64,000 nucleotides of DNA from Eriocheir sinensis (lineage: Eukaryota > Arthropoda > Malacostraca > Decapoda > Varunidae), in assembly GCF_024679095.1 (NCBI RefSeq), contig NC_066517.1, forward strand, positions 19,772,893-19,836,892. The letters run 5' to 3'. The translations under genes and the position numbers were made by a program. How positions within the stretch are numbered: the first letter of the stretch is position 1; the number at the start of each line of letters is the position of its first letter. Below the pieces are notes generated by a model. That model searched no databases. It saw only the letters and a list, made by a program, of their open reading frames with translations, and had not been told where the DNA came from. Positions 3,138 through 62,111 of the stretch are shown here, piece after piece.

Positions 3138-3171
<34 letters not shown>

Positions 3172-7511: not shown

Positions 7512-33336
<25,825 letters not shown>

Positions 33337-38869: not shown

Positions 38870-39118
38870 TTACCGTCCGTACCAACAGCCATAGCTGGGG
38901 CGGTAGGAGTAGGTGTTGTGTCCGTATCCGCATCCGGGCTCAGCCTCAGCCTCGGGCTCGGTGCTCCTCTATTGGTAGTGATGGCCCTTGTCATAGCTGG
39001 GGCGGTAGGAGTAGGTGTTGCATCCTCCGTATCCGAATCCGGGCTCAGCCTCAGCCTCGGGCTAGGCGCTACTCTTGTAGCGGTACCCGCCATGGCCGCC
39101 ATAGCTGCTGGAGGTTAT
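38870..39118 (-). pseudogene. Pseudogene copy of the repeat-peptide precursor (copy 0)
   Basis: Minus-strand translation gives two and a half repeat units recognisable by YRPSY, EAEAEPG and the end YGR-stop, but with two in-frame stops: TAG in place of the Glu after SA, and a stop replacing the Gly-Lys position (HHYQ-stop-RS). One dibasic site is changed to Lys-Ser. The 5' part (signal peptide, intron, exon 1) is missing; a LINE fragment lies there, and the old promoter is found about 1 kb away at 40160-40215. It keeps the AATAAA signal of its siblings. Confidence 0.85.
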
Positions 39119-39520
39119 ACAAAGGGCGAATAGGAGAATGTTGTACATAGAATACATATATAACTTGACATTGGACACTCTAACGAGTGCAAACCGCCCG
39201 CTGCCAACACCCTCTGGTCGGAGTGCTCAAAATGTGAAAATATGCATTTTTTACCTCGGTGACCTTGACCTTTGACCTTTGACCTTGAAAATCGAACTCG
39301 TCCGGTGGGGGCCCGGTAGTCCACCTATGAATTTTCAACATCCTAGCTGTAATGGTTCAAAAGTTATCACTTTACAGACAAAAAAAATTTATACAGCTGA
39401 AAACAATACCTTCCGCAAAATTCTTTTGCCGGCGGTAAAAACATACCAAAGCATACATAAAAGGTTGTACACAGTGGTAGGTATAGAATGGAGATCTTAA
39501 GGATCTGATGGGAGGAGAGA
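39119..39520. other. Repetitive spacer with TGACCT direct repeats
   Basis: Contains four TGACCT hexamers at 39260-39285 (AGGTCA half-sites on the minus strand, spacings 0, 1, 1). The surrounding ggtgaccttgacctttgacc and gtccggtgggggcccggtag look like the tail of a retroelement, but the family was not identified. Confidence 0.5.
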
Positions 39521-40165
39521 AGGGGCTACTTGTAACGAGGCTCCGGGTCAGGATTGTTCTCCAGTGCGCGGAGGCTCCTCGGGAGCCACGCGTGGTCCCT
39601 GTCCGGGACCTCTCTATGGAGCGCAAGAAGGTCCTGAAATTGATCCCAGCCCTCGGTCGCCATGCGCCTCCAGATGGACGACGCCATCTGATGGAGTCGC
39701 ACGTTCACGGCAGGATGGCGGCCTCCTCGTGGAGGGAGCGCGAGGTCCTAAATTCATCCCACATCACATTGAAAACAAACCTTAGTGCCGCGTTCTGGAC
39801 TTTCTGAAGCCGGTTGAGGTTCAAGATCCCGGAAACGATACAGCAGGGAGAGCGCCGCCCTCGCCTTCGCCACCCTCTCGGTGACATGGGGAGTGAACCA
39901 CAGAGTTATATATTAGAGGGTTTAACTCCAATCTCTCGCTACGGTATATAACTCTGTGGAGTGAACCCATGTTTGGAGATCTTGAGACCGAGAAGGCGTC
40001 CCTGTGTGCGAAAGTCGATGATCTCATCGTCGACAATGAGCGGGGCGGGAGTTCTGGTCCCCAAAGGTATGACGATGAACTTCGCCATGTTTGTCCGTAT
40101 CTTCCATGCTTTTTCGAAGCCCCCACCAACACTGGTGATCTCCCTACCCACACGGGCGTTGAGCA
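39521..40165 (-). mobile_element. Degenerate non-LTR retrotransposon fragment (RT C-terminal part)
   Basis: Minus-strand peptides include KIRTNMAKFIVIPLG, LGLKISKHGFTP, and further on LNLNRLQKVQNAALRFVFNV and WRRMATEGWDQF. These are the regions after the reverse-transcriptase catalytic core in Jockey/CR1-type elements (thumb and the Q..QNxALR(F/L) motif). The frame is broken by a 58-bp insertion at 39900-39957 and by other shifts. It separates the pseudogene body from its promoter. Confidence 0.75.
39900..39957. mobile_element. 58-bp inverted-repeat element with 10-bp target duplication
   Basis: Perfect 13-bp terminal inverted repeats (acagagttatata at 39900-39912, tatataactctgt at 39945-39957) flanked by the direct repeat ggagtgaacc at 39890-39899 and 39958-39967. 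Removing the element and one copy of the repeat rejoins the LINE frame (HGFTP then HVTERV). It is therefore a very small MITE-like insertion. Superfamily unknown. Confidence 0.8.
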
Positions 40166-40215
40166 TTTCACGAGAGTCTGTACGGACTCCTGCCGCCGTG
40201 CCGCTTATATACCGA
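40160..40215 (-). promoter_or_regulatory. Orphaned promoter of pseudogene copy 0
   Basis: Minus TATATAA (plus 40205-40211) with tgccgccgtgccgc and gtctgtacggactcc matches the promoter and initiator region of the intact copies at 43590-43627. The initiator is changed from TCAGT. No gene body follows because the LINE fragment lies at its place. Confidence 0.75.
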
Positions 40216-40470
40216 GGTATTCTATGCCATGTTAGGCGACATAGACATGATCATTTGTTTACAGGCTGCAGCATTAATGACTGAGCCAGCACGAAACATA
40301 AGTCTCGTCACTTCTTCACAACGAGACGAGATGCTGCAAGGGAACTGAGTGTCGTCCACCAATCGACGTGACTCCAGGACACGAGGGCAGCTCCAGCCGG
40401 AACAGGTGCGCTCCCTCCCTCCAGCCAAGGTTTCCGATGCTCACTCACTCCCCAAAACGAGGAATCAACA
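40216..40470. other. Upstream region of copy 0, shared with copy 1
   Basis: About 230 bp (catgatcatttgt, acaggctgc, cgagatgctgcaa, gactccaggacacgagggca) recur at 43985-44220 upstream of copy 1 but not at copies 2-4. Confidence 0.8.
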
Positions 40471-41270
40471 TAATAAACCATTCTGAGAGGAGTCATGTCT
40501 CATTGTCATAGGCTATAATGCGTCCTAGGGATGAATGTATAAGAGTGATATGTTAATGAGTAAGTACAGTAGAAACCTTAATAACACCTCTTAATGGAGA
40601 AATAAGGTGACCAGGTGGGAAAAACTGAGCTAGTAAGTACATTATTTTTTACATATTTTTGTTATAACTATTTACATGGGTAATTCTAGGTTATAATGTA
40701 TAAATAAGGCATGTACATTAACATATGTGTACATCAAATCCTTAATAATCTCTCATAATGGAGAAATAAGAGGAAAAATGGAGCCAGGCTGTGGAGCTTG
40801 GGTGGAGTCACAATCGGTGTGCTCCTTTTTTTGTGCGTGCCGTGCTGGGTTGTTACAATATGTCCCAGGCTTTGTGAAGGAAAATACCTGAAAAGATCCA
40901 CGCAGAAGCTAGGTTTGGCTTTAGCAGTTGTTAACCAGCTTAAAAATATGAAAAAGTGTCGATCGGTCCACCACTACCACCCGCCTCCTCCCAGGGTTTT
41001 GCCAAAGATCTATAGAATTCTTCTCTAATATTAATACCACATCATATTAAAACTACCTGTACAACTATTACATGTTTTAGAGAACACCACATTTCATATA
41101 ATATTATGATGTGTAAATCCTTGAATAAAACCAAGATTCGAATGAGATTCTTGCTGGCGTTTTTTTTTTTTTTTGTTTTTTTTAGGAGAGAGGGTGAAGA
41201 GAACAAGAAGTTAGAGGAAGATAAAAAGGGGGGAATATAAAGACAGGAGAAGTAGATAGCTTAATGGACG
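40471..41270. other. Spacer without recognised features
   Basis: A/T-rich sequence with a weak internal duplication (cttaataacacctcttaatggagaaataag at about 40571 and cttaataatctctcataatggagaaataag at 40740, offset 169 bp). No gene found. Confidence 0.6.
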
Positions 41271-42540
41271 ACCACCGTTGCATGAGGTTTTTTAGGATGT
41301 TGGATCTTTTTAGATGTTTTTAGAGTGTTGAGATGTGTGTTTGTTTGGAGTTAACACAAAATGTGTTTAAGTGTTACCTGATGATACAGGAGTTTGTGGT
41401 AGTGACTTGTCTGGTTGTGAATATTGTTTTTGCATAAGGCCACTTAGTAGTATAATGGGGTTGGCAAAGTTTGTAGGTGTTTTAAGCTGCTGGGGAACGC
41501 AGCATGAAAAGTCCTGTTGTCCTGGTGATTTTGCATTATCGCATCTTCCGCAGGGATGTTTAGAGTTAAGAGTCTTTCCCATATCTTTTCTGCCTTCAGG
41601 TGAAGCCTGATGTTGAGTGGTAGAGTTTTCGTTCTTTGGTGTAGGTCTTCTGTAGTGAGGGTGTATGGGTATCGCTGATTCGTTGCAAATCTTAGTGCTT
41701 TGTTTTGTATTACTTGGAGTTTGCTGAGCTGTGTCTTACTTAGTGCGTGGGTTGGTACTGGTAGGTACTCAAGGACGGGAAGTACAAGGGTCTTCACAAG
41801 GTGTGTCTTGGTCTTTGTTGGCATGTCTGCAAATCGGTATAGTTTCTTAAGGGAGCAATATGTCTTCGCTGGGAGACGTGGTCACATAGCCCCTTCTGGA
41901 TATTGTCAGGCCCAGTATTTTGCCTCTGTCAGCAGTGCGGTGTCTGCCCGCTGTGGTGACGAGTTCCTCGAATTTTCTGGAGCCGAGGCGGAGGATAATG
42001 AATTTAGACTGATTCGTCTGAATTTTCCATTGCTTTTCATATGTATTGACTGCCTCGACTCCTCGTATTACAGCTCTTTGTGCCATATTAACTGATGGGC
42101 CTTGATAGCCAAGTATCTGTGTGATGTCGTCGGCGTACGTGACGTTCGTGCCAACGACAGGGGGTGGTATGTCTCTCGTGTGTATTGAGAAAAGTGTTGG
42201 GGATAGCACACTGCCCTGAGGGACCCCACAGCGCAAGGCAAAGCTGTCGCCCTAGGTAATTTCCACTCTTATTCTCGCCCTTCTGTCGTCTAGAAAGTTA
42301 CACAGTAATCTTTCTAGAGCGACAGGGAGGTCGAGTTGAAGGATTTTGTACTTTAAACCTAGGTGCCAGACTTTGTCAAAGGCTTTTGTGATATCCCTCA
42401 TGACAATGTGGCATTGTCCTTTATCAGCTTTGTGCTGGGCAATTGTTTCTGTTGTAAGAGCAAGAGCGTGTTCAGTTCCTCTGCTTTGTCTGAAGCCAAA
42501 TTGTAAGGGGTAATGTAGAGTGTTGTCCTCCCTAACGATA
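41271..42540 (-). mobile_element. Degenerate non-LTR retrotransposon (reverse transcriptase)
   Basis: Minus-strand frames show reverse-transcriptase motifs in order: FGFRQSRGTEHAL, RDITKAFDKVWH, LRCGVPQGSVLSPTLFSI, the catalytic box TYADDITQI, KIQTNQSKFIILRLG, LGLTISRRGY, then LQVIQNKALRFATNQRYPY. This is the order of Jockey/CR1-like LINEs. An in-frame stop precedes GVPQGS and frames shift near 41840. No endonuclease part is present, so it is a 5'-truncated dead copy, distinct from the element at 55633. Confidence 0.85.
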
Positions 42541-42886
42541 ATAATAAACTCTTATTTTCTTCTTCCTACTTTCTTTTTTATCATAATCCTTTATTCATCC
42601 ATACATTTTTTTTTCTTCCTCCTCCTCTCACTTTTCCTTTTCCTAATTCTCTTCCTCCTCCTCCTCCTCCTCCATCGCCTCCCCTACTAGTGTAAGCAGA
42701 TTTTGTAAATATATTTTTAGTAAAGAAACCAGAACAAAATTCTCAATCAGCATAATATTTCTTTCATTTCATCCCTGGTAGCGTTCCTCAATCCAGTTCC
42801 TAATGTATGAAAAGTAAACTAGACAACAAGCCGTTGCTAACTACTTCTTACTGTAGGAAGGAAAACAAATCTTTAAAGAGCCGCTC
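42541..42886 (-). other. 3' flank of peptide gene copy 1
   Basis: Holds the unit-edge sequence taacgataataataaactct and CCT-rich DNA shared with later units, without GT tract and SINE. Ends at the poly(A) signal. Confidence 0.75.
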
Positions 42887-42892
42887 TTTATT
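42887..42892 (-). promoter_or_regulatory. Poly(A) signal of copy 1
   Basis: AATAAA on the minus strand, about 48 bp after the stop codon. Confidence 0.8.
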
Positions 42893-42939
42893 TTAGAGTA
42901 TTCGTGAACGTTCGTAAGACAGTCGAAAGGGCTGTAGCA

Positions 42940-43565
42940 TTACCGTCCGTACCCATAGCCATAGCTGGGCCGGTAGTAGCTGTTGTGTCTGTATCCGAAT
43001 CCGGGCTCAGCCTCAGCCTCGGGCTCAGCGCTCCTCTTGCCGAGGTAATGACCGCCATGGCCATAGCTGGGGCGGTAGTAGTGGGTGTGGTGTCCGTATC
43101 CGAATCCGGGCTCAGCCTCAGCCACGGGGTCGGCGCTCCTCTTGCCGAGGTAATGACCGCCATGGCCATAGCTGGGGCGGTAGTAGTGGGTGTGGTGTCC
43201 GTATCCGAATCCGGGCTCAGCCTCAGCCACGGGTTCGGCGCTCACTGCCAGAAGGCAGAAGCCCACCAGGACGGTAGCTACAGCCTGTGAGGAAGAACAG
43301 GAAGAATAAGTCACGTCCAGAGGCACGCAGCTCCCCTCGACCTAACAGCCCTACGGCGGGGCTGCGGGAGGCACCTCCAAGGAGAAAAAGATTCAACTTA
43401 GCAATAAACTCTAGCAGCAACAAATGTAGACTCCCGACACTCTGGTAACTACGGCTCTCACGCCCGGGCACCAGCTGCTGCCTGGATGGAGCAAGGAAGT
43501 AAAGATAGCGACAAGCTGCCTGTGGGAGCACAGCTGAAGGCAGCCACACTCACCGCGATCTTCAT
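42940..43565 (-). CDS. Secreted repeat-peptide precursor, copy 1 (3 units)
   Basis: Coding join on the minus strand: exon 1 43554-43565 (MKIA), intron 43285-43553 with gtgagt and ctcacag, exon 2 42940-43284; 118 residues. The start is chosen because only exon 1 gives a signal peptide: MKIAAVATVLVGFCLLAVSA, with cleavage expected after Ala20. The mature part has three units starting (S)AEP/EPV..EAEPGFGYG and carrying YYRPSYGHGGHYLGKR; the last ends SYGYGYGR-stop. Lys-Arg after Gly is a prohormone-convertase site followed by amidation, so products such as ...GGHYL-amide are predicted. No known peptide family was recognised; a glycine/tyrosine/histidine-rich antimicrobial or cuticle-associated secreted protein is the alternative. 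TATA box, TCAGT initiator and AATAAA are present. Confidence 0.85.
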
Positions 43566-43597
43566 GTCGACCAGGTGGAGAGACCAGCTTCGACTGT

Positions 43598-43627
43598 ACT
43601 GACTCCCGCCGCCGGGCCGCTTATATA
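43598..43627 (-). promoter_or_regulatory. Core promoter of copy 1 (TATA plus Inr)
   Basis: Minus TATATAA at 43621-43627 and the arthropod initiator TCAGT at 43598-43602; the initiator A (43600) is 27 bp from the first T of the TATA box. The start codon follows 35 bp downstream, giving a short 5' UTR. Confidence 0.85.
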
Positions 43628-44329
43628 CCGCGCCGCGTGAGGCCAGGGTCGCCCGACAGTTTTCTCCCCAGCTTGGCTCATCGGCTTTTCCGGAGGGAGG
43701 AGGCAGGGGCGCCATGGCCAAAGTTACGTGTTGCTGACAGCCTAGGCTGCCTCTCTCCCTCCAACTCGTCCAGGAGAGTCCTTCTCTGGTACATCAACCA
43801 TCCTCCCTCGTCTGTTCCATCTCCAATGACAGTCCTTCCCTGTGACAATGTAACATACCTCCTCCTCCTCCTCCTCCTCCTACTCCTCCTATTCCTCCTC
43901 CTCCTCCTATTCCTCCTCCACTGCCTCCTTTTCTTCCTCCTCCTATTCCATAACTGCGTTCATGCGTTGTGAGAGACGGAGTTGTTGCACGAGGCACGGA
44001 CATACAAACATGATCATTTGTGTACAGGCTGCGTTGGTGACTCAGCCAGCACGAACTATATAGCGTATCGTCACTTCTGCACAACAAGACGAGATGCTGC
44101 AAAGGAACTAAAGGTCATCCACCCCTCCACGTGACTCCAGGACACGAGGGCAGTTCCAGCCGGAACAGGCGCGCTCCCTTCCTCCAGCCAAGGTATCCCA
44201 TGCACACTCACTCAACAACACTAATGAATATTCTGGGCTGCGAGAGGGCTTCTACTTTTTCTTCTCCTTTTTCTTCTACCTCTTCTTCATTTACTTCTTC
44301 TTTTTGTTCTTCATCAAAATAATCATCTT

Positions 44330-44363
<34 letters not shown>

Positions 44364-44500
44364 TTGATCTTGTCCTTGTTCTTCCTCTACCTCACATTTC
44401 TTGCCTTTCTATTTGAATCAACTTTCTGTATCAACAAAAAAAAAACCATTGGAAGAAGAAGTAAGAAGACATAATAATAGGCTGAGTGACGTCAATGGTA
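43628..44500. other. Upstream region of copy 1 and spacer
   Basis: CCT trinucleotides 43859-43945, then the upstream block shared with copy 0 (43985-44220), then T/C-rich and ATC-repeat DNA (44333-44365). No gene seen. Confidence 0.7.
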
Positions 44501-44504
44501 ACAC

Positions 44505-45404
44505 ACGAACAGGTAAATAGCAAAACAGGTAAATAGCAAAACAGGTAAATAGTAAAACAGGTAAACAGCACAACAGATAAATAGTAAAACAGGTAAACAT
44601 CACAACAGGTAAATAGTAAAACAGGTTAATAGCAAAACAGGTAAATAATAAAACATGTAAATAGCAAAACAGGTAAATAATAAAACAGGTAAATAGCAGA
44701 ACAGGTAAATAATAAAACAGGTAAACAGCAAAACAGGTAAATAATAAAACAGGTAAGTAATAAAATAGGTAAATAGCAAAACAGGAACAGCAAAACAGGT
44801 AAATAATAAAGCAGGTAAACAGCAAAACAGGTAAATAGCAAAACAGGTAAATAATAAAACAGGTAAACAGCAAAACAGGTAAATAGCAAAACAGGTAAAT
44901 AATACAACAGGTAAACAGCAAAACAGGTAAATAATAAAACAGGTAAACAGCAAAACAGGTAAATAATGAAACAGGTAAACAGCAAAACAGGTAAATAATA
45001 AAACAGGTAAACAGCAAAACAGGTAAATAATAAAACAGGTAAACAGCAAAACAGGTAAACAGCAAAACAGGTAAATAATAAAACAGGTAAACAGCAAAAC
45101 AGGTAAATAGCAAAACAAGTAAACAGCAAAACAGGTAAATAGCAAAACAAGTAAACAGCAAAACAGGTAAATAGCAAAACAGGTAAATAGCAAAACAAGT
45201 AAACAGCAAAAGAGGTAAACAGCAAAACAGGTAAACAGCAAAACAGGTAAATAATAAAACAGGTAAACAGCAAAACAGGTAAATAGCAAAACAACTAAAC
45301 AGCAAAACAGGTGAATAGCAAAACAAGTAAACAGCAAAACAGGTAAATAGCAAAACAGGTAAATAGCAAAACAGGTAAACAACAAAACAGGTAAATAGTA
45401 AAAC
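44505..45404. repeat. 15-bp minisatellite, left half
   Basis: About 60 units of aaacaggtaaatagc with variants aataat and aaacagc. Because 15 is divisible by 3 and stops are absent, open frames of over 300 residues appear on the minus strand, but they encode only the repeat. Each unit contains CAG|GTAAA, a consensus-like 5' splice site on the plus strand. Confidence 0.97.
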
Positions 45405-46036
45405 AGCTTCCTCGAGGCTGGGCGTTCTGTACCGTCTCCGCCAGTTCTTCTCCCCCGCACAGTTGCTGTCCATTTACAGGGGCCTTGTCCGCCCTCGTAT
45501 GGAGTATGCATCTCATGTGTGGGGGAGGTCCACTCAAACAGCTCTCCTTGACAAAGTGGAATCAAAGGCTCTTCGTCTCATCAGCTCTACTTCTCAAATT
45601 GATGGTCTTCTACCTCTCAAATTTCGCCGCCATGTTGCCCCTCTTTCTATCTTCTAACGATATTTTCATGCTGACTGCTCTTCTGAACTTGCTAACTGCA
45701 TGCCTCCCCCGCTCCCGCGGCCCCGCTGCACAAGACTTGCTACTCATGCTCATCCCTATAATGTCCAAACCCCTTATGCAAGAGTTAACCAGCATCTTCA
45801 CTCTTTCATCCCTCACTCTGATAAACTCTGGAACAATCTTCCTTCATCTGTATTTCCTCCTGCCTATGACTTGAACTCTTTCAAGAGGAGGGTATCAGGA
45901 CACCTCTCCTCCCGAAATTGACCTCTGATTTCGAACACTCCTTTAACCTCTGTTCTGGAGCAGTAAGTAGCGGGCCTTTTTTTTTTCATTTTTTCATAAC
46001 GCCCTTGCACTGTCTCCATAGCTGTAAAAAAAAAAA
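45405..46036 (+). mobile_element. 5'-truncated LINE 3' end inside the minisatellite
   Basis: Starts at cttcctcgaggctgggcgtt, which is internal in the LINE at 55633-57183 (56550), and ends in gctgtaaaaaaa. Peptides match its 3' ORF end: MLSIYRGLVRPRMEYASHVW, KALRLIS and LWNNLPSSVFPPAYDLNSF, with frameshifts. The minisatellite continues at both sides. The 5' junction shares cag with the target, suggesting microhomology. Confidence 0.9.
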
Positions 46037-46900
46037 AGTAAATAATAAAGCAGGTTAATAGTAATACAGTTAAATAGTAAAACAGGTAAATAATAAAACA
46101 GGTAAACAGCAAAACAGGTAAATAATAAAACAGGTAAACAGCAAAACAGGTAAATAATAAAACAGGGAAACAGCAAAACAGGTAAATAAAAAAACAGGTA
46201 AATAGCAAAACAGGTAAATAGTAAAACAGGGAAACAGCAAAACAGGTAAATAATAAAACAGGGAAACAGCAAAACAGGTAAATAATAAAACAGGTAAACA
46301 GCAAAACAGGTAAATAATAAAACAGGGAAACAGCAAAACAGGTAAATAAAAAAACAGGTAAACAGCAAAACAGGTAAATAGTAAAACAGGGAAACAGCAA
46401 AACAGGTAAATAATAAAACAGGGAAACAGCAAAACAGGTAAATAATAAAACAGGAAAACAGCAAAACAGGTAAATAGTAAAACAGGGAAACAGCAAAACA
46501 GGTAAATAATAAAACAGGAAAACAGCAAAACAGGTAAATAGTAAAACAGGGAAACAGCAAAACAGGTAAATAGTAAAACAGGGAAACAGCAAAACAGGTA
46601 AATAATAAAACAGGTAAACAGCAAAACAGGTAAATAATAAAACAGGTAAACAGCAAAACAGGTAAATAATAAAACAGGTAAACAGCAAAACAGGTAAATA
46701 GTAAAACAGGGAAACAGCAAAACAGGTAAATAATAAAACAGGTAAACAGCAAAACAGGTAAATAATAAAACAGGTAAACAGCAAAACAGGTAAATAATAA
46801 AACAGGGAAACAGCAAAACAGGTAAATAGTAAAACAGGGAAACAGCAAAACAGGTAAATAATAAAACAGGGAAACAGCAAAACAGGTAAATAGTAAGACA
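46037..46900. repeat. 15-bp minisatellite, right half
   Basis: About 57 more units; here many read aaacagggaaacagc, alternating with aaacaggtaaataat in a 30-bp higher-order pattern not seen as clearly on the left. Confidence 0.95.
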
Positions 46901-47280
46901 ACGAAAGCAAAAGAGAATTGATCAATACAAAAAGAGAAAGGTTCCCCTCGATAAAGGGAAAAAAATAAGGACATGATAAAAATCTGAAAAAAGATAACTT
47001 CCGGAAAGGAGGAAATGGAAAAGACAATGAAAACAAAGGGAAAATCAGTACACAAAACCGAGATATTTTCCGCTTGAAATAAATATAAAAAACTACAAGA
47101 ATGAGAAAGAATTGGAAAGTTGTTGAGTTTCCTTACGCCTCCCCTCGCTTCCTTGTTCTCCCCTCCCCAACCTCCCTTCCGTTCTCTCTTGCACAACCTT
47201 CCCGGGACTCGAGGCAACACCCAAGCTAATTTTTACACACAAGAAGGGAAGGCGAGGGAGGAGCTGGAAATGAGATAGGT
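46901..47280. other. Spacer before the first large duplicated unit
   Basis: A-rich, then a short C-rich block around 47140-47220. Nothing recognisable. Confidence 0.6.
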
Positions 47281-47733
47281 AAAGTGTTGAATATTTCTCC
47301 TTTTCTCTACGTTAGTTTCAATTTGTCACCCTCCTCTTCTTCCATCTTCTTCAACTCTTCCTCCTACTTCTTCTTCTACTTCTCTCCTTCCTCCTCCTCC
47401 TCTTCCTCCTCCACTCCTAGCATTTCTATTCTTCTCCTCGCACTCTTAACAAAACAAACATTCAGATATCGGAGTCATTCAGGGAAAATAAAGACGGAAG
47501 AAACAAAGCCAAGAAAAGTGGGAATTGAGAAAAAAAAATGAAAATCGAGAAACAAAGCGATATGGCAATAATGAAGCGGCCGATCGGTGACTGACACACC
47601 GGAGAGTTAACTGACTATACTGATTTTTTGAACGGTTTGATAATTTAACCCTTGACTCGCCACACTTCAGAACAGCAATTAAATATTAATAAAAAATAAA
47701 TAAAAGCACGCCTGGCATTATAATTCTCCGTCT

Positions 47734-47824
<91 letters not shown>

Positions 47825-48402: not shown

Positions 48403-48469
<67 letters not shown>

Positions 48470-48486
48470 TCAAGACTGGACTGTAC

Positions 48487-48807: not shown

Positions 48808-49021
48808 ATGCTATATTTTCTATAGTGTCAGTAGCTTTTATAAATATGTTTTTACAAACGAAATCATAGCAAAAGTCTAAATTAGCATAATATTTCTTTC
48901 ATTTCATCCCTGGTGGCGTTCCTCATTCCAGATTTTAATATATGGAAAGAAAACGAGGCAACAAGCCGTTGCTAACTACTTCTTACTGTAGGAAGGAAAA
49001 CAAATCTTTAAAGAGCCGCTC

Positions 49022-49027
49022 TTTATT
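49022..49027 (-). promoter_or_regulatory. Poly(A) signal of copy 2
   Basis: AATAAA on the minus strand, about 48 bp after the stop. Confidence 0.8.
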
Positions 49028-49074
49028 TTAGAGTATTCGTGAACGTTCGTAAGACAGTCGAAAGGGCTGTAGCA

Positions 49075-50006
49075 TTACCGTCCGTACCCATAGCCATAGC
49101 TGGGGCGGTAGTAGCTGTTGTGTCTGTATCCGAATCCGGGCTCAGCCTCAGCCTCGGGCTCAGCGCTCCTCTTGCCGATGTAATGACCGCCATGGCCATA
49201 GCTGGGGCGGTAGTAGCTGTTGTGTCTGTATCCGAATCCGGGCTCAGCCTCAGCTTCGGGCTCAGCGCTCCTCTTGCCGATGTAATGACCGCCATGGCCA
49301 TAGCTGGGGCGGTAGTAGTGGGTGTTGTATCCGTATCCGAATCCAGGCTCAGCCTCAGCTTCGGGCTCAGCGCTCCTCTTGCCGATGTAATGACCGCCAT
49401 GGCCATAGCTGGGGCGGTAGTAGTGGGTGTTGTATCCGTATCCGAATCCAGGCTCAGCCTCAGCCTCGGGCTCAGCGCTCCTCTTGCCGATGTAATGACC
49501 GCCATGGCCATAGCTGGGGCGGTAGTAGCTGCCGTGTCCGTATCCGAATCCGGGCTCAGCCTCAGCTTCGGGCTCAGCGCTCCTCTTGCCGATGTAATGA
49601 CCGCCATGGCCATAGCTGGGGCGGTAGTAGCTGCTGTGTCCGTATCTGAATCCGGGCTCAGCCTCAGCCACGGGTTCGGCGCTCACTGCCAGAAGGCAGA
49701 AGCCCACCAGGACGGTAGCTACAGCCTGCGAGGAAGAAAAGGAAGAATAAGTCACGTCCAGAGGCACGCAGCTCCCCTCGACCTAACAGCCCTACGGCGG
49801 GGCTGCGGGAGGCACCTCCAAGGAGAAAAAGATTCAACTTAGCAATAAACTCTAGCAGCAACAAATGTAGACTCCCGACGCTCTGGTAACTACGGCTCTC
49901 ACGCCCGGGCACCAGCTGCTGCCTGGATGGAGCAAGGACGTAAAGATAGCGACAAGCTGCCTGTGGGAGCACAGCTGAAGGCAGCCACACTCACCGCGAT
50001 CTTCAT
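49075..50006 (-). CDS. Secreted repeat-peptide precursor, copy 2 (6 units)
   Basis: Join: exon 1 49995-50006, intron 49726-49994 (gtgagt, ctcgcag), exon 2 49075-49725; 220 residues. Same signal peptide as copy 1 (cut after Ala20). Six units: the first lacks SA and begins EPVAEAEPGFRYG; five end in HYIGKR; the last ends SYGYGYGR-stop. The variable core before YYRPSYG differs between units: HSS, HGS, YNTH (twice), RHNS (twice). All five internal sites are Gly-Lys-Arg, predicting ...HYI-amide products. All six units keep the acidic EPEAEAEP head or its EPVAEAEP form. Function unknown. Confidence 0.87.
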
Positions 50007-50038
50007 GTCGACCAGGTGGAGAGACCAGCTTCGACTGT

Positions 50039-50068
50039 ACTGACTCCCGCCGCCGGGCCGCTTATATA
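50039..50068 (-). promoter_or_regulatory. Core promoter of copy 2 (TATA plus Inr)
   Basis: Minus TATATAA at 50062-50068 and TCAGT at 50039-50043, identical in sequence and spacing to the other copies. Confidence 0.85.
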
Positions 50069-52684: not shown

Positions 52685-52789
<105 letters not shown>

Positions 52790-53297
52790 ACGATAATAAT
52801 GAACTCTCATTTTCTTCTCCGTACTTTCTTTTTTATCATCGGATTTTATTCATCCATTCATTTTTCTTTTCATCCCTCCTCCTCTTACTTCTCCTCCTCC
52901 TCCTATTCCTCCTCCTCCTCCTCTTCTTCCTTTTCCTCTTCTTTGCTCACCTGTTCACAAATAATCAAGTTACACAGAACACCAAAAGGTGAACTTGCTC
53001 AATCAGGTAATTTGTGCTACTAGTAAGGAGAAGAGGAGGAGGAGTAGGAAGAAGAGGAGGAGGAGGACGAGAATGAGAGGAGGAGGAGGAGGAGGAGGAG
53101 GAGGAGGAGGAGGAGGAGGAAAAGGAGCTGGAGAAAGAAGGAGGGATTAGGAAGGGGAGGAGGAGGAGGAGGAGGACGAGGAGATGGATACGATAAGAGG
53201 AGAAAATTAAGAGGGAAAGTGAGCGTAATTTTTCCTCTCAAGACGATTTGTGGGTTTGATCCTTTGACTTGTTTACTTACCTAATTGAACCAGAAGG

Positions 53298-53390
<93 letters not shown>

Positions 53391-53407
53391 TCAAGACTGG
53401 ACTGTAC

Positions 53408-53728
53408 TTTTTTTTTAAGTCATAGTCGCCGGTAGACTTTCTTCAGGGCGATGGTGGTCAGCCCAAGCCCGTCATGGCGCAGGCAAGTGTTTATAGTGGC
53501 GCCATCTTTTCTTGGCTCATGCTGTCCCCCGGAGCTCATCCTTGAATCACTTGGACGGTTCCTCTAAAGTCCGGGTTGATGGGTGGTCTTCAGGCCAGCA
53601 TGTGGGTAGTCTTAGGCCTCTCGCCGGTGATTATAAAATTAATGTTGGTAGCTACGGATTCGAACCCGGACCGTCCACAACGCGGTGAATGAGAGGCCCG
53701 CACGATAACCACCCAGCCTCCGCCTCCC
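53408..53728 (-). mobile_element. tRNA-derived SINE, unit 2
   Basis: Duplicate of the SINE at 48487 with a few changes (gttgatgg for gttcatgg). B-box gggttcgaatcc is intact. Confidence 0.85.
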
Positions 53729-53942
53729 ATGCTATATTTTCTATAGTGTCAGTAGCTTTTATAAATATGTTTTTACAAACGAAATCATAGCAAAAGTCTA
53801 AATTAGCATAATATTTCTTTCATTTCATCCCTGGTGGCGTTCCTCATTCCAGATTTTAATATATGGAAAGAAAACGAGGCAACAAGCCGTTGCTAACTAC
53901 TTCTTACTGTAGGAAGGAAAACAAATCTTTAAAGAGCCGCTC

Positions 53943-53948
53943 TTTATT
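53943..53948 (-). promoter_or_regulatory. Poly(A) signal of copy 3
   Basis: AATAAA on the minus strand, about 48 bp after the stop. Confidence 0.8.
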
Positions 53949-53995
53949 TTAGAGTATTCGTGAACGTTCGTAAGACAGTCGAAAGGGCTGTAGCA

Positions 53996-55425
53996 TTACC
54001 GTCCGTACCCATAGCCATAGCTGGGGCGGTAGTAGCTGTTGTGTCTGTATCCGAATCCGGGCTCAGCACTCCTCTTGCCGATGTAATGACCGCCATGGCC
54101 ATAGCTGGGGCGGTAGTACCTGTTGTGTCCGTATCCGAATCCAGGCTCAGCCTCAGCTTCGGGCTCAGCGCTCCTCTTGCCGATGTAATGACCGCCATGG
54201 CCATAGCTGGGGCGGTAGTACCTGTTGTGTCCGTATCCGAATCCAGGCTCAGCCTCAGCCTCGGGCTCAGCGCTCCTCTTGCCGATGTAATGACCGCCAT
54301 GGCCATAGCTGGGGCGGTAGTACCTGTTGTGTCCGTATCCGAATCCAGGCTCAGCCTCAGCTTCGGGCTCAGCGCTCCTCTTGCCGAGGTAATGACCGCC
54401 ATGGCCATAGCTGGGGCGGTAGTAGTGGGTGTTGTGTCCGTATCCGAATCCAGGCTCAGCCTCAGCCTCGGGCTCAGCGCTCCTCTTGCCGAGGTAATGA
54501 CCGCCATGGCCATAGCTGGGGCGGTAGTAGTGGGTGTTGTATCCGTATCCGAATCCAGGCTCAGCCTCAGCTTCGGGCTCAGCGCTCCTCTTGCCGATGT
54601 AATGACCGCCATGGCCATAGCTGGGGCGGTAGTAGTGGGTGTTGTATCCGTATCCGAATCCAGGCTCAGCCTCAGCTTCGGGCTCAGCGCTCCTCTTGCC
54701 GATGTAATGACCGCCATGGCCATAGCTGGGGCGGTAGTAGTGGGTGTTGTATCCGTATCCGAATCCAGGCTCAGCCTCAGCTTCGGGCTCAGCGCTCCTC
54801 TTGCCGATGTAATGACCGCCATGGCCATAGCTGGGCCGGTAGTAGCTGCTGTGTCCGTATCCGAATCCGGGCTCAGCCTCAGCCTCGGGCTCAGCGCTCC
54901 TCTTGCCGAGGTAATGACCGCCATGGCCATAGCTGGGGCGGTAGTAGCTGCTGTGTCCGTATCCGAATCCGGGCTCAGCCTCAGCTTCGGGCTCAGCGCT
55001 CCTCTTGCCGATGTAATGACCGCCATGGCCATAGCTGGGGCGGTAGTAGCTGCTGTGTCCGTATCTGAATCCGGGCTCAGCCTCAGCCACGGGTTCGGCG
55101 CTCACTGCCAGAAGGCAGAAGCCCACCAGGACGGTAGCTACAGCCTGCGAGGAAGAAAAGGAAGAATAAGTCACGTCCAGAGGCACGCAGCTCCCCTCGA
55201 CCTAACAGCCCTACGGCGGGGCTGCGGGAGGCACCTCCAAGGAGAAAAAGATTCAACTTAGCAATAAACTCTAGCAACAATAAATGTAGACTCCCGACGC
55301 TCTGGTAACTACGGCTCTCACGCCCGGGCACCAGCTGCTGCCTGGATGGAGCAAGGACGTAAAGATAGCGACAAGCTGCCTGTGGGAGCACAGCTGAAGG
55401 CAGCCACACTCACCGCGATCTTCAT
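53996..55425 (-). CDS. Secreted repeat-peptide precursor, copy 3 (11 units)
   Basis: Join: exon 1 55414-55425, intron 55145-55413, exon 2 53996-55144; 386 residues, the longest copy. Signal peptide as in copy 1. Eleven units in order by core and end: HSS-I, HSS-L, HSS-I, YNTH-I, YNTH-I, YNTH-L, HNTH-L, HNR-I, HNR-I, HNR-I, RHNS-terminal, where I or L is the residue before Gly-Lys-Arg. Neighbouring units share cores, which points to local duplication. The last unit begins SAEPGFGY, a six-residue loss relative to copies 1 and 2, and ends GYGYGR-stop. Ten amidation-type GKR sites are all intact, arguing for selection on processing. Confidence 0.87.
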
Positions 55426-55457
55426 GTCGACCAGGTGGAGAGACCAGCTTCGACTGT

Positions 55458-55487
55458 ACTGACTCCCGCCGCCGGGCCGCTTATATA
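55458..55487 (-). promoter_or_regulatory. Core promoter of copy 3 (TATA plus Inr)
   Basis: Minus TATATAA at 55481-55487 and TCAGT at 55458-55462; identical to the other copies. A LINE starts about 145 bp upstream of the TATA box. Confidence 0.85.
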
Positions 55488-55632
55488 CCGCGCCGCGTGA
55501 GGCCAGGGTCGCCCGACAGTTTTCTCCCCAGCTTGGCTCACCGGCTTTTCCGGAGGGAGGAGGCAGAGGCGCCATGGCCAGTTACGTGTTGCTGACAGCT
55601 TCCCTTGCCCCCCTCCCTCCCACTTGTTCAGG

Positions 55633-57183
55633 TGCAGGGTGCTGTCACCCTGCCTGGTCAAACTCTTTCGCCTCTGCCTGTCAACATCTACCTTTCCTTC
55701 TTGCTGGAAGTATGCCTTCACACAGCCTGTACCTAAGAAGGGTGACCGCTCCAATCCCTCAAACTACCGTCCTATTGCTTTACTTTCTTGTCTATCTAAA
55801 GCTTTTGAATCAATCCTTAACCGTAAGATTCAAAAGCACCTTTCCACTTCTGACCTTCTATCTGATCGCCAGTATGGGTTCCGCAAGGGGCGTTCTACTG
55901 GTGATCTCTAATATCTTAACTGACTCTTGGTCATCCTCTCTTAGCCGTTTCGGTGAAACTTTTGCTATTGCGCTGGACATATCAAAAGCTTTTGATAGGG
56001 TCTGGCACAAATCTTTGCTTTCTAAACTACCCTCCTACGGTTTCTATCCTTCTCTGTACCTTTATCTCAGTTTCCTTTCTGACCGCTCTATTTCTGCCGT
56101 GGTAGACGGTCACTGTTCTTCCCTAAATCTATTAACAGTGGTGTCCCACAGTTCTGTCCTATCTCCCACTCTTTTTCTGTTGTTCATTGATGATCTTCTT
56201 TCCAAAACGAACTGTCCTATCCATTCCTACGCCGATGATTCCACTCTGCATTATTCAACTTCTTTTAATAGAAGACCCACCCTTCAGGAACTTAACGACT
56301 CAAGGCTGGAGGCTGCAGAACGCTTAGCCTCAGACCTTACTATTATTTCCGATTGGGGCAAGAAGAACCTGGTGTCCTTCAACGCCTCAAAACACAGTTT
56401 CTCCACCTATCCACTCGACACAATCTTCCAAACAACTATCCCTATTCTTTGACAACACCCAGCTATCACCTTCCTCAACACTAAACATCCTCGGTCTATC
56501 CTTAACTCAAAATCTCAACTGGAAACTTCATATCTCATCTCTTACTAAATCAGCTTCCTCGAGGCTGGGCGTTCTGTACCGTCTCCGCCAGTTCTTCTCC
56601 CTGCACAGTTGCTGTCCATATACAGGGCCTTGTCCGCCCTCGTATGGAGTATGCATCTCATGTGTGGGGCTCCACTCACAGCTCTTCTGGACAGAGTGGA
56701 GGCAAAGGCTCTTCGTCTCATCAGCTCTCCTCCTCATACTGATAGTCTTCTACCTCTTAAATTCCGCCGCAATGTTGCCTCTCTTTCTATCTTCTATCGA
56801 TATTTCCACGCTGACTGCTCTTCTGAACTGCTAACTGCATGCCTCCCCCCGCAGCCCTGCTGCACTCGACTTTCTACTCATGCTCATCCCTATACTGTCC
56901 AAACCCCTTATGCAAGAGTTAACCAGCATCTTCACTCTTTCATCCCTCACGCTGGTAAACTCTGGAACAATCTTCCTTCATCTGTATTTCCTCCTGCCTA
57001 CGACTTGAACTCTTTCAAGAGGAGGGTATCAGGACACCTCTCCTCCCGAAACTGACTTATCTTTCGGCCACCTCTTAGGATTCTTTTAGGAACAGCAGAT
57101 AGCGGGCTTTTTTTATTAATGTTTACTTTTTTGTGCCCTTGAGCTGTCTCCTTTGCTGTAAAAAAAAAAAAAAAAAAAAAAAA
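55633..57183 (+). mobile_element. Non-LTR retrotransposon (LINE), broken, with poly(A)
   Basis: About 1.55 kb. Reverse-transcriptase motifs in order: KKGDRSNPSNYRPIALLSCL, KAFESILNRKIQKHL, QYGFRKGRSTGDL, LDISKAFDRVWHKSL, SSVLSPTLFLLFIDDLL, catalytic SYADDSTLHY, then after frameshifts KALRLIS and LWNNLPSSVFPPAYDLNSF near the end, followed by agctgtctcctttgctgt and about 23 A. Frames shift near 55910 and 56450. It lacks endonuclease and 5' end. It is a CR1/Jockey-type LINE, present only in unit 2, so it inserted after the duplication. Confidence 0.93.
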
Positions 57184-58990
57184 TCAGCCATCCTCCCAGC
57201 GGCTTCTTCAAGTTGTACAGAACGAAAACAAAGGAGAAAGCTGGACCGTTGAAAACAAAAACAGAAGAGCTCATTGAGAATGGAGCAGATATGAGTCAAA
57301 TGTAGAATGACTATTTCCTTTCAGTTTTTAGGTATAGTAAATCAGCCACAAAGTAAAACAGCTACATACTACAAAGACCGCTACATAGCAAAAGACGTAG
57401 ATAGTAAAAAAGGTACATAGTAAAACAGCTACATAGTAAAAAAGCTATATAGTAAAAGAGCTACGTAGTAAAATAGGCAAATAGAAAAACAGAAAAATAG
57501 TACAACAGGCAAATAGTAAAATAAATAAATGGAAAACAATTAAACAATTCATTATTAATCGGAAAGAACAGGTTAGCGTGAGATGACAAAATAAAATATG
57601 AATCCGGTCTAAGAAATGCCTGAGGAAGAAGGAGGAACCTGACTACTCTGAGAGAAAAAAACAAAAGACAAAAACAACGATAAAACAGAGAATGTATGAT
57701 TGTATCTGAAACAAAAGATATGTTAGATAAAAATAGATGAAACTGCAAGGAAGAAAATAAAATAAAATAAAATATGTACAACATAACACAGAGAAAGGAA
57801 TAATTAGGTATACATAGCAATAAGAAGGAAGATGAAAGGTGGGAAGCAGAAAGGCGAGAAGGAGAAGCAGAGAGAAGAATGAAGAAGAAGAAGAAAAGAG
57901 AAACAACGACACAGAATAATGAAGGAAGAGAAGAAAGGAAAAGGAAGAGGGAGGAGGAGAGAAAAGCGAAAGGAAAGGCAAACAGAAGCATACAGGAGGA
58001 GGAGGAAAGAGAAAGATGAATGAGTAGAAAGAAAAAGAAGGAAAATAAAGGAAATGAGAGAAGCGTGAAATGAAAAGGACCGAGATCAATAAAAGAGAAA
58101 AAAGGACCAATAAAATATTTTAAGGAGTGGGACTAAGGAACGAAGAGAGAGATAGTGTGTAGCGTGAACAGAAGAACATCATGACAATGGAAATATAAAG
58201 AGGAAAAGGAGTGTGCAAGAAGAGGATACAGTACCACATAACACTGCGAGGGGAAAAGGACCTATTCCCAAACAAAGGGAGAGGAAGAGAGAGGAAGGGA
58301 GAAGGGGAGAAATGAAGTGTGTTATCCTCTTCCCCTAATACTGTGCCTTACCTAGCATCCCACTCCCTATACTTGCTATACTCAATAATGTAAAGGAAGT
58401 GGGCGGAGAGAAGTGAAGAAGTGTGTTTCCCTTTCTCTGCTAACACACTTCCTCTTCTGGCTGAACCGTGATGAAAAATAAAGTGTGCAAGGACGGAGGC
58501 GAATACAGACGGGAGAAAGTGGAGGCTCTTCTGCAGTGGCCACGCCCTTTGCAAACCCACACGTAGAAGCGAGGTTGTAGGCAGCGAATGGGAGGATGTA
58601 GTGGTCTTGGTGTGATGTCTAAGTTTGGGACAATCAACACAACACATCCTAGTTGCTTACCAGTACCAGAAGCTGGAGTGAAAGAAGGGAGTGACAGGGA
58701 AGGGGGTGAGGAGAGGTAGTGATCTTACTGTGATGACCCGGTAAGTTTTGGACCATCGCTACCACACCAGAAGTAAGGGTGTTGGAAGAGAAGGAAAGGC
58801 TGTAGTGATCTTGGTGTATAGTGGGGATTCCCAACCTGGGGTAATGACCCCAGGACGGATAACTTCATCTTTCCTGTGGGGTTATGGGGAAACAGAGAGC
58901 GACCAAGAAAATCCTAAAAACATGCCCATTGTATTAGGCCTTAGATTAGGACAGGTTGAATGCCCTTTTATGCCCTTTTTTTTCGAATGA
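57184..58990. other. Unit 2 spacer beyond the LINE
   Basis: Nearly identical to 50270-52021 (tcagccatcctcccagcggc onward). No gene recognised. Confidence 0.8.
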
Positions 58991-59137
58991 TATTTACCTC
59001 TCTGCAGAACCGCACACCGCGTACCGCACTGGGAAAGAAAAGGAATGGGACCGCACTACCGCAACCGCACTACTCCGGAAAAAGTACCACACAACCGCAA
59101 CCTCACTATTGATTTTTCAGTACCGCGCCCACCTCTG
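58991..59137. mobile_element. hAT-like element end, unit 2/3 junction
   Basis: Same fragment as at 52022-52168, ending ccgcgcccacctctg. Confidence 0.7.
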
Positions 59138-59650
59138 AAAAATGAGTTGGTTAAAGCGTTATTTTTCTCTCTTTCTCTACAACAGTTTATATTTGTCACC
59201 CTCCTCTTCTTGCTTCTTCTTCAACTCCTCCTCCTACCTCTTCTACTCTTTTTCCTCTTCCTCCTCCTTCTCCTTCTCATCCTCCTCATCCTTTTACTCT
59301 TCCTCCACTTCCTTCTTCTTCAGCTCCTCCTACTCCTCCCTTCCTAGCAGTTCTATTCTTCTCTTCACACTCTAAACAAAACAAACATTCAGATATCGGA
59401 ATCATTCAGGGAAAATAAAGACGGAAGAAACAAAGTCAAGAAAAGTGGGAATTACAAAAAAATAAAATGAAAATCGAGAAACAAAGCGATATGGCAATAA
59501 TGAAGCGGCCGATCGGTGACTGACACACCGGAGAATTAACTGACTATACTGATTTTTTGAACGGTTTGATAATTTAACCCTTGACTCGCCACACTTCAGA
59601 ACAGCAATTAAATATTAATAAAAAATAAATAAAAGCACGCCTGACATTAT

Positions 59651-59741
<91 letters not shown>

Positions 59742-60247
59742 ACGATAATAATGAACTCTCATTTTCTTCTCCGTACTTTCTTTTTTATCATCGGATTTTA
59801 TTCATCCATTCATTTTTCTTTTCATCCCTCCTCCTCTTACTTCTCCTCCTCCTCCTATTCCTCCTCCTCCTCCTCCTCTTCCTCCTTTTCCTCTTCTTTG
59901 CTCACCTGTTCACAAATAATCAAGTTACACAGAACACAAAAAGGTGAACTTGCTCAATCAGGTAATTTGTGCTACTAGTAAGGAGAAGAGGAGAAGGAGT
60001 AGGAAGAAGAGGAGGAGGAGGACGAGAATGAGGAGAAGGTAATGGAGGAGGTAATGGAGGAGGAGGAAGAAAAGGAGCTGGAGAAAGAAGGAGGGATTAG
60101 GAAGGGGAGGAGGAGGAGGAGGAGGACGAGGAGATGGATACAATAAGAGGAGAAAATTAAGAGGGAAAGTGAGCGTAATTTTTCCTCTCAAGACGATTTG
60201 TGGGTTTGATCCTTTGACTTGTTTACTTACCTAATTGAACCAGAAGG

Positions 60248-60326
<79 letters not shown>

Positions 60327-60343
60327 TCAAGACTGGACTGTAC

Positions 60344-60664
60344 TTTTTTTTTAAGTCATAGTCGCCGGTAGACTTTCTTCAGGGCGCTGGTGGTCAGCCC
60401 AAGCCCGTCATGGCGCAGGCAAGTGTTTATAGTGGCGCCATCTTTTCTTGGCTCATGCTGTCCCCCGGAGCTCATCCTTGAATCACTTGGACGGTTCCTC
60501 TAAAGTCCGGGTTGATGGGTGGTCTTCAGGCCAGCATGTGGGTAGTCTTAGGCCTCTCGCCGGTGATTATAAAATTAATGTTGGTAGCTACGGATTCGAA
60601 CCCGGACCGTCCACAACGCGGTGAATGAGAGGCCCGCACGATAACCACCCAGCCTCCGCCTCCC
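60344..60664 (-). mobile_element. tRNA-derived SINE, unit 3
   Basis: Third duplicate of the SINE at 48487; B-box gggttcgaatcc intact. Confidence 0.85.
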
Positions 60665-60878
60665 ATGCTATATTTTCTATAGTGTCAGTAGCTTTTATAA
60701 ATATGTTTTTAAAAACGAAATCATAACAAAAGTCTAAATTAGCATAATATTTCTTTCATTTCATCCCTGGTGGCGTTCCTCATTCCAGATTTTAATATAT
60801 GGAAAGAAAACGAGGCAACAAGCCGTTGCTAACTACTTCTTACTGTAGGAAGGAAAACAAATCTTTAAAGAGCCGCTC

Positions 60879-60884
60879 TTTATT
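60879..60884 (-). promoter_or_regulatory. Poly(A) signal of copy 4
   Basis: AATAAA on the minus strand, about 48 bp after the stop. Confidence 0.8.
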
Positions 60885-60931
60885 TTAGAGTATTCGTGAA
60901 CGTTCGTAAGACAGTCGAAAGGGCTGTAGCA

Positions 60932-62049
60932 TTACCGTCCGTACCCATAGCCATAGCTGGGGCGGTAGTAGCTGTTGTGTCTGTATCCGAATCCGGGCTC
61001 AGCACTCCTCTTGCCGATGTAATGACCGCCATGGCCATAGCTGGGGCGGTAGTACCTGTTGTGTCCGTATCCGAATCCAGGCTCAGCCTCAGCTTCGGGC
61101 TCAGCGCTCCTCTTGCCGATGTAATGACCGCCATGGCCATAGCTGGGGCGGTAGTAGTGGGTGTTGTATCCGTATCCGAATCCAGGCTCAGCCTCAGCCT
61201 CGGGCTCAGCGCTCCTCTTGCCGAGGTAATGACCGCCATGGCCATAGCTGGGGCGGTAGTAGTGGGTGTTGTATCCGTATCCGAATCCAGGCTCAGCCTC
61301 AGCTTCGGGCTCAGCGCTCCTCTTGCCGATGTAATGACCGCCATGGCCATAGCTGGGGCGGTAGTAGTGGGTGTTGTATCCGTATCCGAATCCGGGCTCA
61401 GCCTCAGCTTCGGGCTCAGCGCTCCTCTTGCCGAGGTAATGACCGCCATAGCCATAGCTGGGGCGGTAGTAGCTGCTGTGTCCGTATCCGAATCCGGGCT
61501 CAGCCTCAGCCTCGGGCTCAGCGCTCCTCTTGCCGATGTAATGACCGCCATAGCCATAGCTGGGGCGGTAGTAGCTGCTGTGTCCGTATCCGAATCCGGG
61601 CTCAGCCTCAGCTTCGGGCTCAGCGCTCCTCTTGCCGATGTAATGACCGCCATAGCCATAGCTGGGGCGGTAGTAGCTGCTGTGTCCGTATCTGAATCCG
61701 GGCTCAGCCTCAGCCACGGGTTCGGCGCTCACTGCCAGAAGGCAGAAGCCCACCAGGACGGTAGCTACAGCCTGCGAGGAAGAAAAGGAAGAATAAGTCA
61801 CGTCCAGAGGCACGCAGCTCCCCTCGACCTAACAGCCCTACGGCGGGGCTGCGGGAGGCACCTCCAAGGAGAAAAGATTCAACAGCAATAAACTCTAGCA
61901 GCAACAAATGTAGACTCCCGACGCTCTGGTAACTACGGCTCTCACGCCCGGGCACCAGCTGCTGCCTGGATGGAGCAAGGACGTAAAGATAGCGACAAGC
62001 TGCCTGTGGGAGCACAGCTGAAGGCAGCCACACTCACCGCGATCTTCAT
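60932..62049 (-). CDS. Secreted repeat-peptide precursor, copy 4 (8 units)
   Basis: Join: exon 1 62038-62049, intron 61772-62037 (266 bp, three bases shorter than its siblings), exon 2 60932-61771; 283 residues. Signal peptide as in copy 1. Eight units: HSS-I, HSS-I, HSS-L, YNTH-I, YNTH-L, YNTH-I, HNR-I, RHNS-terminal. The first three units have SYGYGGHY in place of SYGHGGHY, a change private to this copy. The last unit shows the same six-residue deletion (SAEPGFGY) as copy 3, so 3 and 4 are sisters. All seven Gly-Lys-Arg sites are intact. Confidence 0.87.
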
Positions 62050-62081
62050 GTCGACCAGGTGGAGAGACCAGCTTCGACTGT

Positions 62082-62111
62082 ACTGACTCCCGCCGCCGGG
62101 CCGCTTATATA
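62082..62111 (-). promoter_or_regulatory. Core promoter of copy 4 (TATA plus Inr)
   Basis: Minus TATATAA at 62105-62111 and TCAGT at 62082-62086, as in the other copies. Confidence 0.85.

Follow-up and report, generated by a model that had tools for sequence, protein, structure and literature searches.

A cluster of predicted multi-copy secreted peptide precursors with in-phase X-Ala/X-Pro dipeptide spacers in the crab Eriocheir sinensis

Introduction

For ant hymenoptaecin and bee apidaecin, stepwise dipeptide processing has been proposed from the logic of the spacers, in an account that draws a parallel to yeast alpha-factor, where a dibasic cut is followed by the stepwise trimming of X-Ala dipeptides (PMC3415428). 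Apidaecin is described as an 18-residue peptide, rich in proline (28–33% Pro; PMC11678341), and armadillidin, a crustacean antimicrobial peptide, as having 47% Gly (PMC5031766). Here, we analyze a 64,000-nucleotide stretch of contig C9 (the window) from the 1.77 Gb genome of the brachyuran decapod Eriocheir sinensis, which carries a tandem family of genes for repeated, secreted peptides (subfamily A); the family was followed past the window to two sister subfamilies, B and C, and to relatives in other crustaceans. Each gene is, in our judgment, probably a secreted multi-copy peptide precursor, matured by successive peptidase steps and amidation, with a possible antimicrobial or barrier role; the processing scheme, taken by itself, we hold to be likely. 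Gene anatomy, unit borders, the dipeptide grammar and the enzyme families present in the genome are read from the sequence.

The predicted precursors resemble those of apidaecin and hymenoptaecin, as these are set out in the two accounts, in their signal peptide, tandem units, dibasic cut (RR/KR), EAEP-type X-Ala/X-Pro spacer and copy-number amplification (PMC3415428, PMC11678341). The mature parts, however, are unrelated: those of the crab are rich in Tyr, His and Gly, with a single Pro in about 21 residues, a Gly amide donor precedes the Lys-Arg pair, and the crustacean spacers are longer and more varied, with 2–11 dipeptides. Membership of the apidaecin family was rejected, since the mature A peptide, GFGYG...HY(I/L) with one Pro in 21–22 residues, stands against the Pro-rich 18-residue GNNRPVYIPQPRPPHPR(I/L) described for apidaecin (PMC11678341). 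The likeness to yeast alpha-factor, a dibasic cut and then X-Ala dipeptides removed stepwise, is one of description and not of sequence (PMC3415428), as is that to the nematode nlp-29 cluster, which is described as a tandem set of young duplicates for Gly/Tyr-rich secreted peptides (PMC2453101). The peptides predicted for subfamilies B and C are linear and cationic, with 54–57% Gly, and recall the composition given for armadillidin (PMC5031766). This last comparison covers mature composition only, and internal A units differ in having 27–29% Gly. Yeast alpha-factor is a fungal pheromone and is not known to be amidated, and we know of no X-Ala/X-Pro spacer grammar in the nlp-29 cluster.

Gene copies in the window

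Four open gene copies and one dead copy had been predicted on the minus strand of the window, and reading of their promoters, first exons and stops bears this out:

42887..43627, minus strand: copy 1, with a TATA box at 43627, an initiator at about 43606, ATG at 43565 and AATAAA at 42887–42892; exon 1 43554–43565 (MKIA), intron 43285–43553, exon 2 42940–43284; 118 residues with 2 Gly-Lys-Arg (GKR) borders.
49022..50068, minus strand: copy 2, TATA box at 50068, ATG at 50006, AATAAA at 49022–49027; exon 1 49995–50006, intron 49726–49994, exon 2 49075–49725; 220 residues with 5 GKR borders.
53943..55487, minus strand: copy 3, TATA box at 55487, ATG at 55425, AATAAA at 53943–53948; exon 1 55414–55425, intron 55145–55413, exon 2 53996–55144; 386 residues with 10 GKR borders.
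60879..62111, minus strand: copy 4, TATA box at 62111, ATG at 62049, AATAAA at 60879–60884; exon 1 62038–62049, intron 61772–62037 (266 nucleotides), exon 2 60932–61771; 283 residues with 7 GKR borders.
About 38870–39135, minus strand: the dead copy, a partial unit array with 2 in-frame stops.

The four open copies share a TATATAA box, the initiator stretch GGAGTCAGTACAGTC, a four-codon exon 1 (MKIA), a phase-0 intron of 266–269 nucleotides and an AATAAA signal 47 nucleotides past the stop. Within the window, the promoter and exon 1 strings are confined to these four copies, and the dead copy is without them. An NCBI gene model, LOC126996101 isoform X8 (P0001), equals copy 1 from MKIA onward and contains the splice junction MKIA/AVAT. 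The unit arrays have periods of 102–105 nucleotides, divisible by three, with 93–96% match and scores of 498–1781 in Tandem Repeats Finder. All 24 internal borders of the four proteins (7 + 10 + 5 + 2) keep GKR, the count given in the original prediction, and the proteins contain no further KR; the last unit of each copy ends at the stop in ...YGYGR instead of GKR. With a signal peptide recognized by inspection, this architecture supports the earlier proposal of a multi-copy secreted precursor with Lys-Arg cut sites.

Dipeptide heads in phase with the Lys-Arg cut

Internal A units open with a head that reads SA-EP-EA-EA-EP before GFGYG, in phase with the Lys-Arg cut, and short A units have SA-EP, then GFGYG. 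One such head in copy 2 serves as an example:

49552..49581, minus strand: SAEPEAEAEP, five X-Ala/X-Pro dipeptides directly after Lys-Arg, a predicted dipeptidyl-aminopeptidase spacer.

The subfamily B head is SA-DA-DP-EP-QP-EA-EP, followed by GRFRG, and C heads include AP-QP-EA-LP and SA-EA-DP-AP. The first head after the signal peptide reads EP-VA-EA-EP, then GF, in A and DP-EP-QP-EA-EP in B, and in A, B, C and Macrobrachium it is in phase with a signal-peptidase site that is plausible by eye. Two sequence marks of a dibasic/dipeptide-spacer precursor are found: a dibasic site precedes each tandem unit except the first, which comes after the signal peptide, and the spacer is made of X-Ala/X-Pro dipeptides phased to the cut.

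The phase was quantified, with a head definition blind to phase, on the open copies of A (6) and B (13) and on homologues P0002–P0032, which together cover crabs, shrimps, prawns, a copepod and plankton. A head is present at 129 of the 141 distinct unit N-termini, which yields 69 distinct heads. Fifty-six of these 69 consist wholly of X-Ala/X-Pro dipeptides in phase, and Ala or Pro occupies an even position 312 times and an odd position 13 times. For heads of at least four residues, 55 of 68 are in phase, whereas 5,000 rounds of shuffling within heads gave 1.8 on average and 8 at most. In an enlarged set, with five later proteins added, two or more consecutive dipeptides (a run, with P1 being Ala or Pro by definition) occur at 105 of 123 distinct N-termini; 104 runs are in phase, and the single shifted one sits in P0026 at no recognizable unit. 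Head runs are 2–11 dipeptides long, and P2 is occupied by many different residues (E, S, D, V, Q, Y, K, L, T, N, I, F and others). The phasing of the head to the Lys-Arg cut makes its removal the most likely outcome, and the acidic-headed products first proposed for this locus are not supported.

The heads can also be explained as an acidic, charge-balancing spacer, retained or lost by unspecific degradation, with a pattern generated by (GAGGCT)n slippage. Six-nucleotide slippage can indeed lengthen EAEAEA-type stretches without loss of phase, and the heads do reduce unit charge. However, heads of varied, non-repeat sequence remain in phase with the Lys-Arg cut and, as judged by eye, with the signal-peptidase cut, among them SP-VA-EA-LA-DP-EP-EA-DP in Macrobrachium (P0030), NP-IA-EP-EA-LA-NP-EP-EA-DP in Halocaridina (P0035) and the 11-dipeptide head SA-EA-SP-EP-IA-LA-SA-EP-FP-EA-DP in Penaeus japonicus (P0034), for which the script flagged a one-residue overrun. 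Long irregular heads of this kind disfavor slippage alone, and the wide variety at P2 speaks the same way; we regard this explanation as unlikely.

The cluster past the window

The five copies of the window, on which the family was first defined, are part of a larger set. Six further minus-strand A copies lie on C9 past the window, bringing those with an intact TATA box and exon 1 to 10; the frame is fully open in 6 and disrupted in 4. The disrupted arrays (L029, near 7047; L030, near 7066; L031, near 8238 and near 3165) could be pseudogenes or assembly errors within repeats. Subfamily B occupies the plus strand of C9 at about 19.917–20.020 Mb, with 17 second exons, 13 of which end in ...GHYYG at the stop; its exon 1, MNTK, was matched upstream in 16 of the 17, and one (19916553) is distant and without a TATA box. 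A B unit reads, for example, SADADPEPQPEAEP-GRFRGFGGGGFGGFGGHGGGYYR-GKR. Subfamily C consists of two genes on C9, both ending in ...FGYGK at the stop. The minus-strand gene (L060, about 20.022 Mb) has an exon 1, MTST, identified by eye, and 3 internal GYRGKR borders; the plus-strand gene (L061, local positions of about 1000–2009, about 20.033 Mb) has 7 such borders, and no exon 1 was found for it within 1 kb upstream.

The total comes to at least 30 genes or remnants (10 + 1 + 17 + 2) in about 220 kb of C9, a lower bound that covers the stretches of C9 read only. The open copies hold 42 A, 47 B and 12 C units, the last counted by hand. The A copies are closely alike, with introns 98.9% identical on average (minimum 96.3%) and 300-nucleotide promoters 94.0% identical (minimum 75.8%), each over 45 pairs. 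The 42 units of the 6 open A copies fall into 23 DNA variants and 16 protein variants; changes outside the mid-unit are too few for a claim on the ratio of nonsynonymous to synonymous substitution.

Relatives, database names and literature

Relatives were sought by word matching of low-complexity sequence, each search scoring only about 8,000 candidates, and were found in Scylla, Penaeus, Macrobrachium, Halocaridina, the copepod Lepeophtheirus and plankton sets. The matches numbered 29 (A query), 3, and 6 (C query), counting P0001 and one repeat; homology outside Decapoda is unsure. NCBI's automatic names among these relatives include 'apidaecins type 73-like' (Penaeus vannamei) and 'holotricin-3-like' (Penaeus japonicus). 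The NCBI-named Penaeus proteins show the unit grammar described here and were matched by A (P0006, P0013) and C (P0034, P0037). Unlike the Eriocheir units, A-type Penaeus units have no Gly before KR.

One protein from each of A, B and C was compared with Pfam, and no family scored above its cut-off. Below the cut-off, the A protein matched GMAP (E 0.067) and Bombesin (E 0.17), and the Apidaecin model matched a C head (E 0.48; 11.1 bits versus a cut-off of 23.1) and was not reported for A or B. A single PDB chain matched A, with an E of 0.36.

In the open-access literature, searches with unit and head sequence strings found no description of the family, accounts outside open access being possible. 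The name 'apidaecins type 73-like' led, by title, to bees only and to no crustacean paper by name; 'apidaecin' combined with Penaeus vannamei gave no such gene in titles or abstract starts; and searches for the family name or locus gave, by title and among the matches listed, other animals only. The family is apparently undescribed. The initial impression of a peptide outside those described holds for the open-access literature, and it is qualified by the existence of database relatives, some of which carry the two names given above.

Gly before the cut site

Every KR in the open A and B copies follows a Gly (36 of 36 in 6 copies and 34 of 34 in 13 copies, respectively), and at the stop, open copies end in G-R (A), G (B) or G-K (C). 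The open A and B copies were picked by their Gly ending, so the fair counts are 6 of 10 for A and 13 of 17 for B, the remainder being frame-disrupted. The KR counts, which include the 24 of 24 borders of the window, support the suggested role of Gly as amide donor in Eriocheir sinensis, in which amidation is likely, to judge from the borders. Among homologues with at least two KR sites, Gly precedes the majority of them in 16 (3 mixed) and none in 16, with one intermediate. A terminal Gly was seen in 6 of the 16 homologues with Gly-KR versus 1 of the 16 without (Fisher p 0.083), several of these proteins looking cut or mis-annotated. Across the sequences compared, Lys-Arg with its dipeptide head is the part common to the family.

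Predicted processing and candidate enzymes

Maturation is proposed to proceed in four steps. Signal peptidase would cleave after ...AVSA; a furin/Kex2-type convertase would cleave after Lys-Arg, and a carboxypeptidase would strip the pair; a DPP4-type dipeptidyl aminopeptidase would trim SA, EP, EA, EA and EP pairwise and halt at GF; and in Eriocheir sinensis, PHM/PAL would convert the exposed C-terminal Gly to an amide. The predicted A mature form is GFGYG...RPSYG(H/Y)GGHY(I/L), a cationic, Tyr/His/Gly-rich peptide of 21–22 residues, for instance GFGYGHNRYYRPSYGHGGHYI-amide, of which each mRNA would supply many near-identical copies. The spacer would serve as a removable pro-part that reduces the charge of each unit: at pH 7, the net charge of internal A units is −1.8 or −0.8 with the head and +2.2 or +3.2 without it, and in subfamily B, −1.0 and +4.0, respectively. 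Cleavage at the predicted sites, amidation and function are what we infer from these patterns.

S9 peptidase exons with the nucleophile motif GWSYGG lie on contigs C10, C48 and C6, Cu2-monooxygenase (PHM-type) exons on C59 span nearly the whole C-terminal domain, and proprotein convertase exons are present in the genome. By their presence in the genome, the S9, PHM-type and convertase genes are candidate enzymes for these precursors. A further gene of this kind lies in the window:

24953..33336, plus strand: DPP4-family gene with several exons, pieces of which score above the cut-off for Pfam DPPIV_N and Peptidase_S9.

As the processing enzyme, this neighbor was rejected, its nucleophile motif being GWGHGG, without Ser, and the GWSYGG exons lying on the other three contigs. 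The motif suggests a pseudo-peptidase whose catalytic Ser has apparently been replaced by Gly. This putative pseudo-peptidase gene adjoins the cluster of precursors with DPP-type spacers.

Weighing the processing scheme

Several observations count against processing as proposed here, or against parts of it. Thirteen of the 69 heads deviate, which we read as 7 overruns into the mature part, 4 cases of Ser at P1 and 2 non-borders; 12 of the 141 N-termini have no head, most of them basic pairs that are not unit borders, and one, in P0025, follows a genuine GKR border. Of the 13 heads in the five later proteins taken by themselves, 8 fit, under a head rule that admitted Phe, which the rule for the 69-head set did not. 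Two of the 5 misses are the one-residue overrun of an 11-dipeptide head, and 3 are irregular units of the plankton protein P0036. Since the homologues were picked by word matching, their heads are partly related by descent and are no independent inventions. With the head on, the charge is still +2.0 for the last A unit and +1.2 for the C example; not every unit is neutralized, and charge balance is therefore only part of the story. The 16 homologues without Gly before KR include the Penaeus MKYL type and Scylla, so amidation is no family constant. Finally, no Rel/NF-kB-type site was found in the 600 nucleotides upstream of the copies covered (10 of 10 A and 4 of 17 B), and such sites were dropped as support for immune induction; with a chance expectation of just 0.17–0.42 per A promoter, their absence weighs weakly.

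Function

Antimicrobial or barrier defense is the most likely function, a best guess to which we would give roughly an even chance, because the predicted peptides are cationic, amidated and Gly/Tyr-rich, the cluster is large and tandem, the introns are near-identical and the mature parts diverse. A hormone or another secreted effector is possible. Both roles named in the original prediction, neurohormone and antimicrobial, stay candidates, with the antimicrobial one favored.

A family of neurohormones, amidated peptides that act on a receptor, would share the KR and Gly architecture of amidated neuropeptide precursors, and the two sub-threshold Pfam matches of A, GMAP and Bombesin, are peptide-hormone models. 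Set against this are the tandem array of at least 30 genes or remnants, which share processing signals and differ in their mature parts, as between A and B, and the missing Gly before KR in Penaeus and Scylla relatives. Most conserved decapod hormones are unlike such a large tandem set with differing mature parts, and we rank this explanation next, as improbable.

The least probable of the three alternatives is an uncut structural protein of the cuticle, a silk-like material or another matrix, with KR and acidic blocks spacing the Tyr/Gly-rich ones, for which Tyr/Gly/His-rich repeats, keratin-like or hnRNP-like automatic names on some relatives and a tiny first exon, common among arthropod cuticle genes, all count, and against which stand the conserved dibasic borders with Gly, the in-phase heads, the Gly at the end of open A, B and C copies, followed by one basic residue at most, and the lack of a Pfam family above cut-off for the A, B and C proteins, hence of a chitin-binding domain. 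The cuticle family was accordingly rejected, the sole PDB chain and the Pfam results offering no strong match to one.

Other sequence between the copies

Further elements lie between the gene copies:

44508–45406 and 46047–46900: arrays of 16/32-nucleotide units (AACAGGTAAATAGCAA-like), with open reading frames of 222–422 residues in several frames.
41444–42551, 55501–57055 and 39372–40300: reverse-transcriptase-like or other transposon-like fragments, by eye.
38870–40000: a stretch, part of which matches dozens of further places in the genome.

As a unit length of 16 or 32 nucleotides is not divisible by three and keeps the frames open, the reading frames of the first two arrays look like repeat artefacts and not genes.

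Implications

The precursors may belong to a crustacean superfamily that conserves a processing code (signal peptide, Lys-Arg, an in-phase X-Ala/X-Pro spacer and an optional amide Gly) and leaves the released peptides free to diverge; with at least 30 genes or remnants and about 100 units in open copies, release would depend on a convertase and a DPP4-type peptidase. We offer this wider view tentatively, at somewhat less than an even chance. If it is true, one dipeptidyl peptidase would be the single control point of a whole defense arsenal. The scheme predicts exact mature peptides for crab peptidomes, GFGYG...HYI-amide or HYL-amide for A and GRFRG...YYR-amide for B, with GFGYRHNSYYRPSYGYGY-amide and GRFRGFGGGGFGGFGGHGGGYYR-amide among the head-free forms; a search for acidic-headed masses would probably miss them. 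It would extend the dipeptide-spacer logic of bees and yeast to crustaceans, where a sequence grammar may find such peptides when homology fails. Eriocheir and the penaeids are major aquaculture animals, so that a large, apparently undescribed family of secreted peptides would be of practical interest.

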